Assembly: GCF_002844195.1 (NCBI RefSeq)
Contig: NZ_PEND01000009.1
Location: 62,001 to 126,000 of the forward strand
DNA: 64,000 bases
From: Halegenticoccus soli
GTDB taxonomy: Archaea > Halobacteriota > Halobacteria > Halobacteriales > Haloferacaceae
Direction of reading: 5' to 3'
Each line of letters opens with the position of its first letter. Positions within the stretch are counted from its first letter, which is position 1. A program made the position numbers and the translations under genes. This document shows, in pieces, positions 12,708 through 49,639 of this stretch. The notes beneath the pieces are model-generated. The model was not told where the DNA came from, made no database searches, and was given only the letters and a program-made list of their open reading frames with translations.

Positions 12708-12910
12708 CCTCGCCGGACCGCTTTGGCGCCGTAAGCACCGCAAAGTATTCAAATCCGCCCTCTTCTACATTCTCTTACTAATTTGATGAAAATAATGACC
12801 TCGGTCCATTTTGCATACTATTTCGGACGTTAACGGAGTATCAGAACTCGCGTAGAAAGGCCGAAGCTTTAAGTCCTATTTTTTCATGGATTGTAGTGAG
12901 GTTCGCACAC

Positions 12911-14734
12911 ATGGTACAGGTTATCTGGCTGGTCGTCACGGTGTTGGCGCTGTTCAGCGTCGGGTACCTGGGATACTCCAGGTACCTCGCGCGGTTCGTC
13001 GAACTCGATGACGACCGGGAAACACCGGCACACAAGTACAGGGACGGGCAGGAGTACGTGCCCGCAAAGAAACCAGTTCTCCTCGGGCACCACTACTCGA
13101 GCATCGCGGGGGGCGCGCCGATCGTCGGTCCTATCACCGCCGGGGTGGTGTGGGGCTGGGTCCCGGCGCTCCTCTGGATCGCCATCGGTAATCCCCTGAT
13201 GGGGGCGGTCCACGACTTCGTCTCCCTCTCCGGGAGCCTCCGGCACGAGGGGAAGTCGATCGGGTACATCATCGGCGAGTACGTGGGCGAGCGCGGGAAG
13301 AACATGCTCCTGTGGTTCGCGTTCCTGACGATCATCCTCGTCGTCGCGGTGTTCGCCCTCGTGGTCGGCATCGTCTTCAACGCGTACCCGCAGGCGGCGA
13401 CCGCGAGCCTCGTCTACATCGCGCTCGCGTTCGTCTTCGGCGTGTACCTCTACCAGATGAACCTGCCGTTCATTCCGGGCACGGTCGTGTTCGTGCTCGC
13501 CGTGTTCGCCGGCGTGTTCATCGGCATCGAGTACCCGCTGGCGCTGTTCCAGCCGACGGCCGAGACCGCGCCCGCGAACACCATCGTGCTGTTCTCCGGC
13601 GCGGGGTCGTGGATTCCGGCGGCCGGGGAGCTCGGCGCCAACACCGCCGCGTGGGTGCCGGTCGTGATGGTCTACGGGGCGCTCGCCAGCGCGCTCCCGG
13701 TCTGGATGCTGCTCCAGCCGCGGGATTACCTGTCGTCGTTCCTGCTCTACACGGGCGTCGGCGGCGCGCTCCTGGCGATCATCGTCGGGACGATCCTCGG
13801 CAGCGCGTCCCAGCCGCTCACCATCTCGCTCGAACCCTACTACGGGTTCTGGGGCACCGCGAGCCTGCCGCTGTTCCCGCTCCTGTTCATCACGATCGCG
13901 TGCGGGACGATAAGCGGCTTCCACTCGCTCGTCTCCTCCGGGACGACCTCGAAACAGCTCAACAGGGAGTCGGACGCCCGCCTCATCGGCTACGGCGGCA
14001 TGCTCGGCGAGGGGCTGCTGGCGACGACGGCGCTCGCCGCGGTCGCCATCGTCGGCTTCGCCGAGGGGAGCGGCATCGGCCTGGCGCTGCCGAACTTCGC
14101 CACCGGCGGCGGCATCATGCTCACCAGCTTCGGCATCCCGACGTCGTTCGGCGCGCCGTTCATGGCGCTCGTGCTGGTCAGCTTCCTGCTCACCAGCACC
14201 GACACCGCGGTGCGGCTCGGCCGCTACATGATGGACGAGATCGTCGGCACGCCGGAGACCACCGTCGAGAGCGCCGCCACCGACCGCTACGGTAACGCGG
14301 TCGTCCAGATCGGCGTCGCCTACGTCCTCGTGTCGAGCGGCACCTGGGCCGACCTCTGGCCGCTGTTCGGCGGTGCGAACCAGCTACTGGCGGCGCTCGC
14401 GCTCCTGACGGCGACGGTGTGGCTCGCCAACTGGGACGACAACAAACAGCTCGTCAGCACCGGCGTCCCGATGGCGCTCATGACGTTCATCACCGTCTGC
14501 GGGCTGCTGTACCTCGCGCTGTACCAGAACCTCTACGTGAAGTTCGTCCTGGGCCAGTGGGGCGGGGACGCGAGCCTCGCCACCCAGGCGTCCGTCGCGG
14601 TCCAGATCGTCCTGGCGCTGGTACTGATCGGCCTGGCGCTGTCGCTCGTGTGGCTGGGCTACAGCAATATCAGACGGGCCCGCGGCACCGCGAGGCAGGT
14701 CGCAGCCGACGGCGGCTCGGAGTCGGACGACTGA
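12911..14734 (+). CDS. cstA: CstA family carbon-starvation / pyruvate-peptide transporter
   Basis: Integral membrane transporter of 607 residues with about 14-16 helices. The family signature is 'LLGHHYSSIAGGAPIVGP' (residues about 55-72), with 'WVPALLWIAIGNPLMGAVHD', 'SGFHSLVSSGTTSKQL' and 'LFGGANQLLAALAL' also present. Bacterial CstA/BtsT proteins import peptides or pyruvate under nutrient limitation. Two starts are possible: ATG 12911 (chosen, giving MVQVIWLVV) or GTG 12896, which lies about 26 bases after the TATA-like CTTTAAG (12867-12873) and could be a leaderless start. A strong palindromic element begins at the stop codon. Confidence 0.9.
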   Translation: MVQVIWLVVTVLALFSVGYLGYSRYLARFVELDDDRETPAHKYRDGQEYVPAKKPVLLGHHYSSIAGGAPIVGPITAGVVWGWVPALLWIAIGNPLMGAVHDFVSLSGSLRHEGKSIGYIIGEYVGERGKNMLLWFAFLTIILVVAVFALVVGIVFNAYPQAATASLVYIALAFVFGVYLYQMNLPFIPGTVVFVLAVFAGVFIGIEYPLALFQPTAETAPANTIVLFSGAGSWIPAAGELGANTAAWVPVVMVYGALASALPVWMLLQPRDYLSSFLLYTGVGGALLAIIVGTILGSASQPLTISLEPYYGFWGTASLPLFPLLFITIACGTISGFHSLVSSGTTSKQLNRESDARLIGYGGMLGEGLLATTALAAVAIVGFAEGSGIGLALPNFATGGGIMLTSFGIPTSFGAPFMALVLVSFLLTSTDTAVRLGRYMMDEIVGTPETTVESAATDRYGNAVVQIGVAYVLVSSGTWADLWPLFGGANQLLAALALLTATVWLANWDDNKQLVSTGVPMALMTFITVCGLLYLALYQNLYVKFVLGQWGGDASLATQASVAVQIVLALVLIGLALSLVWLGYSNIRRARGTARQVAADGGSESDD

Positions 14735-14835
14735 TAGGGAGTAGCGTAGGAATCCATCGATTCCCTCACGTGGGAATCGATCACTCTGGTCGGTCGGGAC
14801 TCGCTGTGTCCCCGATCGGCTACGCTACTCCCTAT
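14734..14835. repeat. three-way palindromic element after cstA
   Basis: Outer arms 14734-14748 and 14821-14835 are perfect 15-bp inverted repeats (ATAGGGAGTAGCGTA / TACGCTACTCCCTAT). Inside is a perfect 10-bp hairpin (ATCGATTCCC 14756-14765, loop TCACGT, GGGAATCGAT 14772-14781). A weaker second hairpin follows (GGTCGGGAC ... GTCCCCGATC, about 14789-14817). The whole folds as a three-way junction of about 102 bases. The outer arm begins at the last base of the cstA stop. It may be a transcript end, a structured RNA or a small palindromic mobile element; no T-run follows closely. Confidence 0.75.
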
Positions 14836-14888
14836 GAGCTATCCGCGAGGCAACACTTTTCTCATCCGAGATCGGACATGACTGCGTG

Positions 14889-20390: not shown

Positions 20391-20471
20391 CCAACACGTT
20401 TGGCCGCAATCACTCTACCAACACGTTTGGCCGCAATCACTCTACCAACACGTTTGGCCACAGTCACTCTA
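20391..20471. repeat. three tandem 27-bp repeats
   Basis: Units at 20391-20417, 20418-20444 and 20445-20471. The first two are identical and the third differs at two bases. Each starts CCAACACGTTTGGCC and ends CACTCTA. A perfect 12-bp palindrome GGCCACGTGGCC (20381-20392) abuts the first unit. The third unit contains the stop codon and last codons of the lipoprotein gene on the minus strand. There is no spacer between units, so it is not a CRISPR array. Confidence 0.9.
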
Positions 20472-21084
20472 GCCGGAACTCGAACCCCCACGTCCCGACG
20501 TCTCCGAGTTCCTCCTCGATCCGATACGTGCTGGCCTTTGGACATCCCCCGGACAGTTCACCATCGACGCCGACCACTGCGTACTCCCGCTTGCGACGCT
20601 GGCCGGGGTCGAGGGTCGTATTTTTGATTCCGTCGGCGCCGACGAACTGGTCGACCCGGGCACACCCGCTGTCGGTCTCCATCAGTTGATTCCGGATTTC
20701 CTCGTCCAGACCGACCACGAGGGTTCCGGTTTCGGTGTGTACACCCTGTGGGAGCGGCAGGTCGCCGGTCTGTCCAGTGTACGACCAACTCACGCTCTCG
20801 TTGCCCGTGTTTTCGACCGCGATCTCAAGATTCGGTATCGCGGTGGCACCCAACCGACTGCCGGTGACGCTTACGTCGTAGTTCACTGGTCCCGGACCCG
20901 CGTCCGCGGAGACGATCGAGAACTCCATTTGTGTCGATTCGCCGGCTCCGCCCGTGCTTCCGTTTCCTCCGGCGTTGGTTCCTCCGCTATTCAGCTCCCG
21001 CTGTTTGTCGATGGTGCCGATGCAACCACCCGTACTGACAACGGCTGCGCTCCCGACGCCGAGCAGAAACGTACGGCGTTTCAT
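20464..21084 (-). CDS. secreted lipoprotein, unknown function
   Basis: A 206-residue protein with a Tat-like N-terminus (MKRRTFLLGVGSAAVVSTGG) and lipobox 'TGGC' (Cys21), so it is membrane-anchored outside the cell. A Gly/Asn/Ser linker follows, then a beta-rich domain ('EFSIVSADAGPG', 'NLEIAVENTGNESVSWSY') that resembles an Ig-like or CARDB-type sandwich. Two more Cys ('DSGCARVDQF', 'LSGGCPKAS') could form a disulfide. Its base composition looks less GC-rich than the neighbours, a hint of recent acquisition. The stop lies in the third 27-bp repeat. A TATA-like GTTTAAAC (21119-21126) is about 38 bases upstream. Confidence 0.8.
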   Translation of the reverse strand: MKRRTFLLGVGSAAVVSTGGCIGTIDKQRELNSGGTNAGGNGSTGGAGESTQMEFSIVSADAGPGPVNYDVSVTGSRLGATAIPNLEIAVENTGNESVSWSYTGQTGDLPLPQGVHTETGTLVVGLDEEIRNQLMETDSGCARVDQFVGADGIKNTTLDPGQRRKREYAVVGVDGELSGGCPKASTYRIEEELGDVGTWGFEFRLE

Positions 21085-48805: not shown

Positions 48806-49639
48806 ATGACACCCACACGCTCCCCCACGGTCCTTTCGATCGCACTGCTCTGCGTCGCGCTGGCGGTCGCTCCCGCGGCCGTCGCGGCCGATTCCCACGG
48901 AGACGACGGTCTCGACGGGCGCTCGACTCCGGCCGAGCCCGTCGACCCGTCCGTCGAGGTCGACGGGCCGCCGTCGGACGCCGCGGCGTTCCAGCAGTCG
49001 CAGCCGAACGCCTCGAACGCGACCCGGGGCGCGAACGCGAACCCTTCCCAGCAGGCGCAACCGGCGAGGCAACAGCAGCAGCCGACGCAGCAACCGCAGC
49101 AGCCCCAGCAGCCGCAACGGACTCAACGACCCCAGCAACCGCAGCAACCGCAATCGCCAGAACAACCGCAGCAGCCGACGCAGCAACCGCAACCACAGCA
49201 ACCGACCCAGCCGCCGCAGCAACCGACGCAGCAGCCGCAACCAACGCCGACTCCGTCCCCGACGCAGCAACCCCAGCAACCTCAGCAACCGCAGCAACCT
49301 CAGCAACCCCAGCAACCCCAGCAACCCCAGCAGCCGACACAGCAACCGCAACCACAGCAACCCCAGCAACCGCAACAAACGCCGACACCGACTTCGACGC
49401 CGACCCCCACGCCCACTCCGACACCCACACCGACGCCGACCCCCTCACCGACTCCCACGCCGACGGCGACGGACGCGCCGCAGTCGGGCGCGGTCGGCGG
49501 TGAGGACTCGGTCGGGTCGGACACGGTCACGCCCACGGGCGCCGAACGGAACGACCTCGGCGTCGCCGCGCTGATCCTGCCGCTGCTGTTCGGCGGTCTC
49601 CTGGCGGCGCTCATCGCCGTCGGGACGCGGCGACCCTGA
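48806..49639 (+). CDS. Pro/Gln-rich surface protein with signal peptide and C-terminal anchor
   Basis: A 277-residue protein. Residues 1-27 form a Sec-type signal peptide (hydrophobic core 'IALLCVALAVAPAAVA'). After an acidic stretch, residues about 72-210 are almost entirely Pro, Gln and Thr ('QQPQQPQQPQ' units, then 'TPTPTPTPTP'), a stiff extended rod. The C-terminus has a membrane helix 'ALILPLLFGGLLAALIAVG' then basic 'TRRP'. This is the layout of an S-layer-anchored stalk or adhesin. Start at ATG 48806 gives the signal peptide; ATG 48782 and GTG 48704 are in frame. The pure repeat means the length likely varies between strains. Confidence 0.8.
   Translation: MTPTRSPTVLSIALLCVALAVAPAAVAADSHGDDGLDGRSTPAEPVDPSVEVDGPPSDAAAFQQSQPNASNATRGANANPSQQAQPARQQQQPTQQPQQPQQPQRTQRPQQPQQPQSPEQPQQPTQQPQPQQPTQPPQQPTQQPQPTPTPSPTQQPQQPQQPQQPQQPQQPQQPQQPTQQPQPQQPQQPQQTPTPTSTPTPTPTPTPTPTPTPSPTPTPTATDAPQSGAVGGEDSVGSDTVTPTGAERNDLGVAALILPLLFGGLLAALIAVGTRRP

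Follow-up and report, generated by a model that had tools for sequence, protein, structure and literature searches.

A palindromic element at the stop codon of cstA in Halegenticoccus soli, very probably one of a family of small haloarchaeal transposons

The palindrome that directly follows cstA in the window, i.e. the whole 64,000-nucleotide stretch of Halegenticoccus soli DNA analysed here, represents a mobile element rather than an RNA that regulates cstA; very probably it is a MITE, i.e. a cut-and-paste transposon that is non-autonomous and about 100 bp long. Copies of the element are dispersed, share their ends, are flanked by a short target duplication and often lie exactly in a stop codon, and cstA in relatives carries none of them. 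The partner in its movement would be a transposase of an IS630 subgroup, and the stop-codon position probably reflects selection against harmful insertions. The first-pass annotation had offered an mRNA 3' structure, a small palindromic mobile element or a regulatory RNA, and had proposed a genome-wide search for copies; that search, with 23 copies in the own genome and matches in others, decides for the mobile element, as do the target duplications and the absence of the element from every other cstA locus fetched.

The palindrome downstream of cstA

The features at this locus, in window coordinates, are as follows.

12896..14734, plus strand: cstA (carbon starvation protein), the host gene, intact, ending in GACGAC-TGA (Pfam CstA, E 4.4e-132)
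14732..14734, plus strand: target duplication, left copy, TGA, which is the cstA stop codon (sequence, ORF and flank comparison)
14735..14834, no strand assigned: non-coding terminal-inverted-repeat element, very probably a MITE, 100 bp (sequence and covariance model)
14735..14749, plus strand: left terminal inverted repeat, TAGGGAGTAGCGTAG (sequence and copy comparison)
14756..14781, no strand assigned: inner hairpin with a perfect 10-bp stem; interior folding is not family-wide (fold)
14789..14820, no strand assigned: weaker second hairpin, in competition with the outer stem for its last pair; the folded interior is not family-wide (MFE fold)
14820..14834, minus strand: right terminal inverted repeat, complementing the left one perfectly (sequence and copy comparison)
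14835..14837, plus strand: target duplication, right copy, TGA, then G (sequence and flank comparison)

The outer arms of the palindrome had been described as perfect and 15 bp long; they are perfect, but as full palindrome arms they pair over 16 bp, ATAGGGAGTAGCGTAG (14734-14749) with CTACGCTACTCCCTAT (14820-14835). The outermost A and T of these arms are part of the TGA...TGA duplication and the element proper occupies 14735-14834 (100 bp), so the earlier statement that the structure starts at the final base of the stop codon of cstA (ORF 12896-14734) holds for the palindrome and not for the element itself. The inner hairpin does have the perfect 10-bp stem ascribed to it, ATCGATTCCC (14756-14765) with GGGAATCGAT (14772-14781), the second hairpin, at about 14789-14820 in the MFE fold, is indeed the weaker one, and the sequence directly 3' of the palindrome contains no T-run, as had been reported. 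Folded as RNA, the 102-base palindrome reaches -58.9 kcal/mol, compared to a shuffle mean of -32.2 (z -8.0), and none of 200 shuffles was as good, so the fold is not due to chance; its hairpin shape is a consequence of the inverted repeats. A search of the whole window against Rfam gave 0 matches at gathering scores. The covariance model described below matches the element (G000:C9:76731-76838) with 101.7 bits and E 1.2e-26, a score that includes the flanking C-TGA and TGA-G contained in the model; the cstA copy was one of the 18 copies from which the model was built.

Dispersal of the element and cstA loci in other genomes

A DNA search of the own genome returned the copy itself, one copy of 89% identity and many weaker matches at the ends, and the sites of the weaker matches, once read, turned out to be a family with common ends, 18 copies of which were aligned (alignment A1). 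The covariance model from A1 identified 23 distinct places in the own genome (42 rows, both strands counted). Matches at E ≤ 0.01 (model R1) occur in 61 of 293 genomes, the own genome included; this search used stricter filters than that of the own genome, and copy numbers per genome are at least those found, with up to 13 matches listed for each. A pattern with exact ends was present in 25 stretches of the GTDB collection, the named hosts including Natrarchaeobius, Natronosalvus, Salinadaptatus, Halapricum, Natronolimnohabitans, Halorussus, Halalkalirubrum, Natronomonas and Natrialba, and the other stretches coming from MAGs labelled Halococcaceae, Haloarculaceae, Natronomonas or Euryarchaeota. 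Since it is dispersed both in its own genome and in other Halobacteria, the element is not specific to cstA. Plasmid records searched with the cstA copy, from which very near records may be left out, gave no match, and 69 stretches of viral contigs with the 15-base pattern were assumed to be chance occurrences. Recent movement is suggested by eight copies compared from genome G269, which lie at different sites and share up to 99% identity (median 96%); the best copy pairs of the own genome are 92% identical, and the nearest relative of the cstA copy is 88% identical to it.

A match to cstA was found in 43 of 60 genomes, own included. The element is absent at all 29 of the cstA loci fetched from other genomes, so that of 30 loci only that of the window carries it. 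In locus L232 a partial match (10.5 bits, E 0.7), at a distance of about 1 kb from that to cstA, was taken as chance. In a genome of the same genus (G001), cstA ends in GAC-GAC-TGA and is followed by other DNA without the element. Judged from these loci, the cstA insertion belongs to the lineage of the window as far as sampled.

Some arrangements of copies stand out. In genome G235 two copies lie about 0.9 kb apart around a 265-aa membrane-protein ORF, TauE-like by eye (L173, G235:C2:386905-389010), and a pair of inner-end matches with nearly the same spacing is found on another contig of that genome (G235:C1:24391-25313); these pairs are possibly a duplicated or mobilised segment. At positions 100-226 of locus L048 (G000:C1:895549-895675), a partial second element starts 29 bp upstream of a copy, as a nested or partially duplicated end.

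Ends, target duplication and interior

Ends and flanks were compared in a set of 96 copies from 30 genomes, consisting of all 23 own copies and mostly the best-scoring rows of the 61-genome search. Without the duplication the element measures 96-101 bp in 93 of the 96 copies, has no coding capacity and ends in 15-bp terminal inverted repeats with the consensus TAGGGATTATCGTAG, the arms being perfect in 23 copies. Of the 96 copies, 79 have the same 3 bp on both sides (TGA/TGA 40, TCA/TCA 38, AGT/AGT 1), compared to a mean of 39.5 and a maximum of 56 in 2000 shuffles of the right flanks among copies; 17 copies are without identical 3-bp flanks, and mixed TGA/TCA flanks occur in only 2 of 96. As the S base repeats in direct orientation, the flanks represent a target-site duplication and not part of the inverted repeat. 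When the duplication is read as TGA, a C precedes it in 92% and a G follows it in 65% of 78 sites, and copies away from stop codons, in the same reading, give 0.90 and 0.52, respectively (n=31). This asymmetry, present also away from stop codons, indicates that the target is not a simple palindrome. Palindromic target sites were rejected on a further ground: the joined empty sites (94) were no more complementary or stable than controls in which right flanks were dealt to other copies (p 0.73). On this reading the insertion sites are C-TSA-R (S = G or C), and the 3 bp duplicated are TGA or TCA.

The interior behaves differently in the cstA copy and in the family. Over the 96 copies the interior fold has a mean z of 0.05, with 10% of copies below -1 and the cstA copy, at -2.07, among the more stable ones, and a conserved cloverleaf was rejected on these values. 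The three-way junction of the first-pass annotation is a property of the cstA copy on top of the inverted repeats, and not a family trait. From 18 copies RNAalifold derived no more than 15 pairs, with two-sided changes in 6. When right arms were dealt within genomes, 1028 matches were counted over 19 positions compared to 988 observed; dealt arms match more because positions 16-19 differ between the ends and copies are unoriented. Compensatory change in the arms, hinted at by positions 6-7 only, is not claimed.

Position at stop codons

Stop-codon tests were conducted on the 78 TGA/TCA copies of the 96-copy set, the duplication being taken as TGA. Upstream of the insertion, 53 of the 78 copies have 100 or more open codons in the frame that leads into this TGA, compared to 31 and 11 for the other two frames; by a GC3 criterion, 47 of 78 are stop-codon insertions. 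Among the 23 own copies, a gene caller (a home-made codon-usage script) run on the joined flanks put 14 precisely at a stop codon, 7 between genes and 2 within ORFs, both of the latter having decayed flanks. Ten of the 14 stop-codon hosts were scanned, and all ten proteins belong to Pfam families: CstA, a glycosyltransferase, a metallo-beta-lactamase/rhodanese protein, an HTH_10 regulator, an acyl-CoA dehydrogenase, a permease, VIT1, PHO4, a CoA-transferase and a uracil-DNA glycosylase. After an insertion at a TGA stop the upstream gene would still end in its stop codon, and the element would add a TAG in frame behind it; the duplication restores the TGA, and hence the host coding sequence is unharmed. 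This niche illustrates a way for a transposon to multiply in a compact genome while leaving genes intact.

To what extent the position exceeds expectation depends on the control. CTSAG sites in 464 kb of the own genome, the only genome that this control covers, number 379, of which 214 are coding, 50 are at stop codons and 115 are elsewhere. Measured against the non-coding sites (50:115), stop versus non-stop counts are 14:3 for copies with clean duplications (p 4e-5) and 14:9 for all copies (p 0.008); measured against the 43 intergenic sites on the 3' side only, the same counts give p 0.03 and p 0.64, the clean subset being biased in that a stop codon preserves its own TGA. Given the result of this stricter control, selection is enough to explain most of the enrichment. 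We infer that the pattern arises from a CTSAR target together with the removal of harmful insertions, the latter probably being the main reason for the copies in stop codons, with genuine targeting as a possibility. Orientation relative to the host gene is mixed, with 28 same and 19 opposite for the 47 stop-codon copies (p 0.24), and 48 same and 30 opposite for all 78 (p 0.054).

That the transposition machinery itself prefers stops, through a directional motif (A/T)CTGA(G/A) or a coupling to gene ends, is possible, if on balance unlikely; the asymmetry of the C and G flanks and the excess of clean copies at stops versus intergenic CTSAG sites count in its favour. If true, the element would be a mini-transposon whose own machinery directs it to a safe harbour, the translation stops. 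Unless the preference is such active targeting, the mechanism is an ordinary one.

Relationship to an IS630 subgroup

Candidate partners were sought at 50 DDE transposase loci (30 PF01609 and 20 PF13358, part of the listed matches) by the presence of TAGGG...CCCTA ends. The 20 PF13358 loci yielded one good end pair (L376, in G059), an IS630-type (DDE_3) element of 1036 bp with TGA/TGA flanks and a broken transposase gene, and the sole pair among the 30 PF01609 loci was weak (L331, 6 mismatches in all, no duplication). A 34-column matrix, made from left ends of the MITE only, has its best match on the IS end in nine loci of the closest relatives (two of them probably one element), with scores of 12.6-26.8. 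The null maximum was 10.5 in the 30 PF01609 loci, a null that is not pure, as its top match (L334, 10.5) itself resembles the MITE end. Loci above this maximum comprise 1 of the 20 PF13358 loci, 6 of 30 fetched by similarity to the L376 protein (one being L376 again), all 3 plasmid loci and, of 13 additional loci, 7 (three seen before); the other 24 of the 30 L376-similar loci stay under it and are mostly more distant relatives. With the mostly more distant relatives under the null maximum, the shared end belongs to one IS630 subgroup, named examples of which lie on plasmids of Natrinema gelatinilyticum (NZ_CP100758.1, annotated as IS630 family transposase) and Haloplanus sp. GDY1 (NZ_CP098515.1).

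At the boundary of the element, the IS end sequence TAGGGATYAGCAGAGATACTCATAGATT matches TAGGGATTATCGTAGGAGTTCATAGATT, the left end of the MITE, and a C often precedes the duplication in both, one IS copy having TGA/TGA. The seven complete IS copies are 1036-1073 bp long with a transposase, whereas the MITE is about 100 bp and non-coding. Their duplications, with both ends read, are TA/TA in four, TGA/TGA in one, TTG/TTG in one and unclear in one (L410), and so the TA duplication of most IS630 copies is not shared by the MITE, which duplicates a 3-bp TSA. Left flanks at 16 loci fetched with the IS-end pattern were CTA in 7, CTSA in 6 and other in 3, suggesting targets of the kind CT(S)AG, in which the extra base may be present or missing.

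The own genome has 0 matches to the 28-bp IS-end pattern, and no PF13358 match, and the transposase piece finds nothing in it at E ≤ 1e-15. The IS-end pattern is likewise absent from G269, which has the most similar MITE copies, and from the copy-rich G086, G235 and G259. It is present in 12 of 286 genomes and adjoins a transposase homologue in 5, of which only G059 and G263 have MITE matches. The 34-bp likeness at one end supports a relationship of the MITE to the IS630 subgroup, which is a candidate, not proven, mobiliser; a transposase of this haloarchaeal subgroup, with matching ends, would move the element in trans, or would have done so in the past. An autonomous element with the same 15-bp ends was rejected: pattern matches in G235, G259 and G269, checked by eye and for G235 partly by script, gave one outward pair at 0.5-3 kb, which is two neighbouring complete copies (L173, 1.09 kb).

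Other small elements with ends of this kind were noticed. One of 97 bp (L435, in G044) has IS630-type ends and TGA/TGA flanks, and one of 128 bp (L429, in G245) has IS630-type ends and TA flanks; both are likely to be further MITE subfamilies that join the family to the IS630 subgroup. At L426, L427, L431, L433 and L437, an IS-type end follows CTSA or TTCA with no transposase homologue, and L426, L433 and L437 have TAGGGATYAGCAKAGATTCTCATAG and then a common GGAGGTGTTGRAATC stretch, with TGA or TCA before.

Alternative explanations and known systems

Considering the palindrome as a regulatory RNA or riboswitch-like 3' UTR element of cstA, the fold of this copy (z -8.0) counts in its favour, but the family sits downstream of unrelated genes in both orientations, is absent at cstA elsewhere, the same-genus genome included, and has no Rfam match at gathering scores, making this reading extremely improbable. 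Lack of conservation at cstA, mixed orientation and the absence of a conserved interior fold speak equally against the view that the element exists because of an mRNA 3' structure, even if the element may have a side effect on mRNA 3' ends. It is also very unlikely that the family is a domesticated REP-like one, i.e. former transposons kept at gene ends as a bidirectional transcription barrier or as protection of mRNA 3' ends. Copies directly at stop codons, the very stable symmetrical stem of the cstA copy and the occurrence of both orientations, as expected of a palindrome, would all suit that role; against it stand the empty cstA loci (29 of 29), interiors not selected for folding, the low number of copies with perfect arms and the missing T-run at the cstA copy. 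For annotators, the case advises caution, as such 3'-end palindromes are insertions, and neither regulatory RNAs nor terminators.

It is rather unlikely that the ends shared with IS630 are convergent or only distantly related and that a different transposase, e.g. of IS5 type, moves the element. IS5-type enzymes use 3-bp TNA targets, and the 3-bp TSA duplication unlike the TA of most complete IS630 copies, as well as the lack of a matching IS end in the copy-richest genomes (the own one, G000, and G086, G235, G259 and G269), would fit this. The likeness to IS630 nevertheless spans 34 bp at the element boundary, single IS630 copies have TGA/TGA and TTG/TTG, and 30 of the listed PF01609 loci gave only the weak pair at L331. 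Membership in SMR-A, moved by an unexplained mechanism, seems improbable as well. These small mobile repeats of Haloquadratum walsbyi, the nearest counterpart in the literature consulted, are described as about 110 bp long with prominent inverted terminal repeats and up to dozens of copies per genome, and the way in which haloarchaeal short mobile repeats move was called enigmatic in 2011 (PMC3119063). They resemble the MITE in size, inverted terminal repeats, many copies, absence of a gene and haloarchaeal hosts; however, the same description reports SMRs to be without target duplication, with ends unlike any transposon, and SMR-A to insert into PATE/IS605-type palindromes (PMC3119063), whereas the MITE has a clear 3-bp duplication (79/96), one end that resembles the IS630 subgroup and empty sites that are not palindromic, the two being set apart by the SMR-A description and not by sequences. 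The ten host genes covered by the scan are ordinary, which also speaks against PATE/IS605 insertion sites.

Prokaryotic MITEs are characterised as short, non-coding and multicopy, with TIRs, a target duplication and IS-related ends, in a review which also names other haloarchaeal ones (PMC10969869). The family described here is short and non-coding, has TIRs and a target-site duplication, is dispersed in many copies and is related to an autonomous element by one end; the exact coincidence of duplication and stop codon (47/78 here) would set it apart from MITEs in general, and that review does not use the term 'stop codon' (PMC10969869). The titles and abstract beginnings listed from the open-licence literature describe no stop-codon MITE, and with respect to that literature the MITE family, which duplicates a 3-bp TSA and often lies exactly at a stop codon, is taken to be new. 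Through it, a haloarchaeal type of short repeat acquires a target duplication and a target motif that are both defined, as well as the IS630 subgroup as candidate parent, and with these its mobilisation becomes directly testable.

Other repeats in the window

Two further repetitive regions were noted in the window. Three nearly identical 27-bp direct repeats (20391-20471) lie over the 3' end of a minus-strand ORF (20464-21084), and low-complexity arrays, long and built of 6-18 bp units, extend from 49086 to 49464, where they may encode a repetitive part of a protein.
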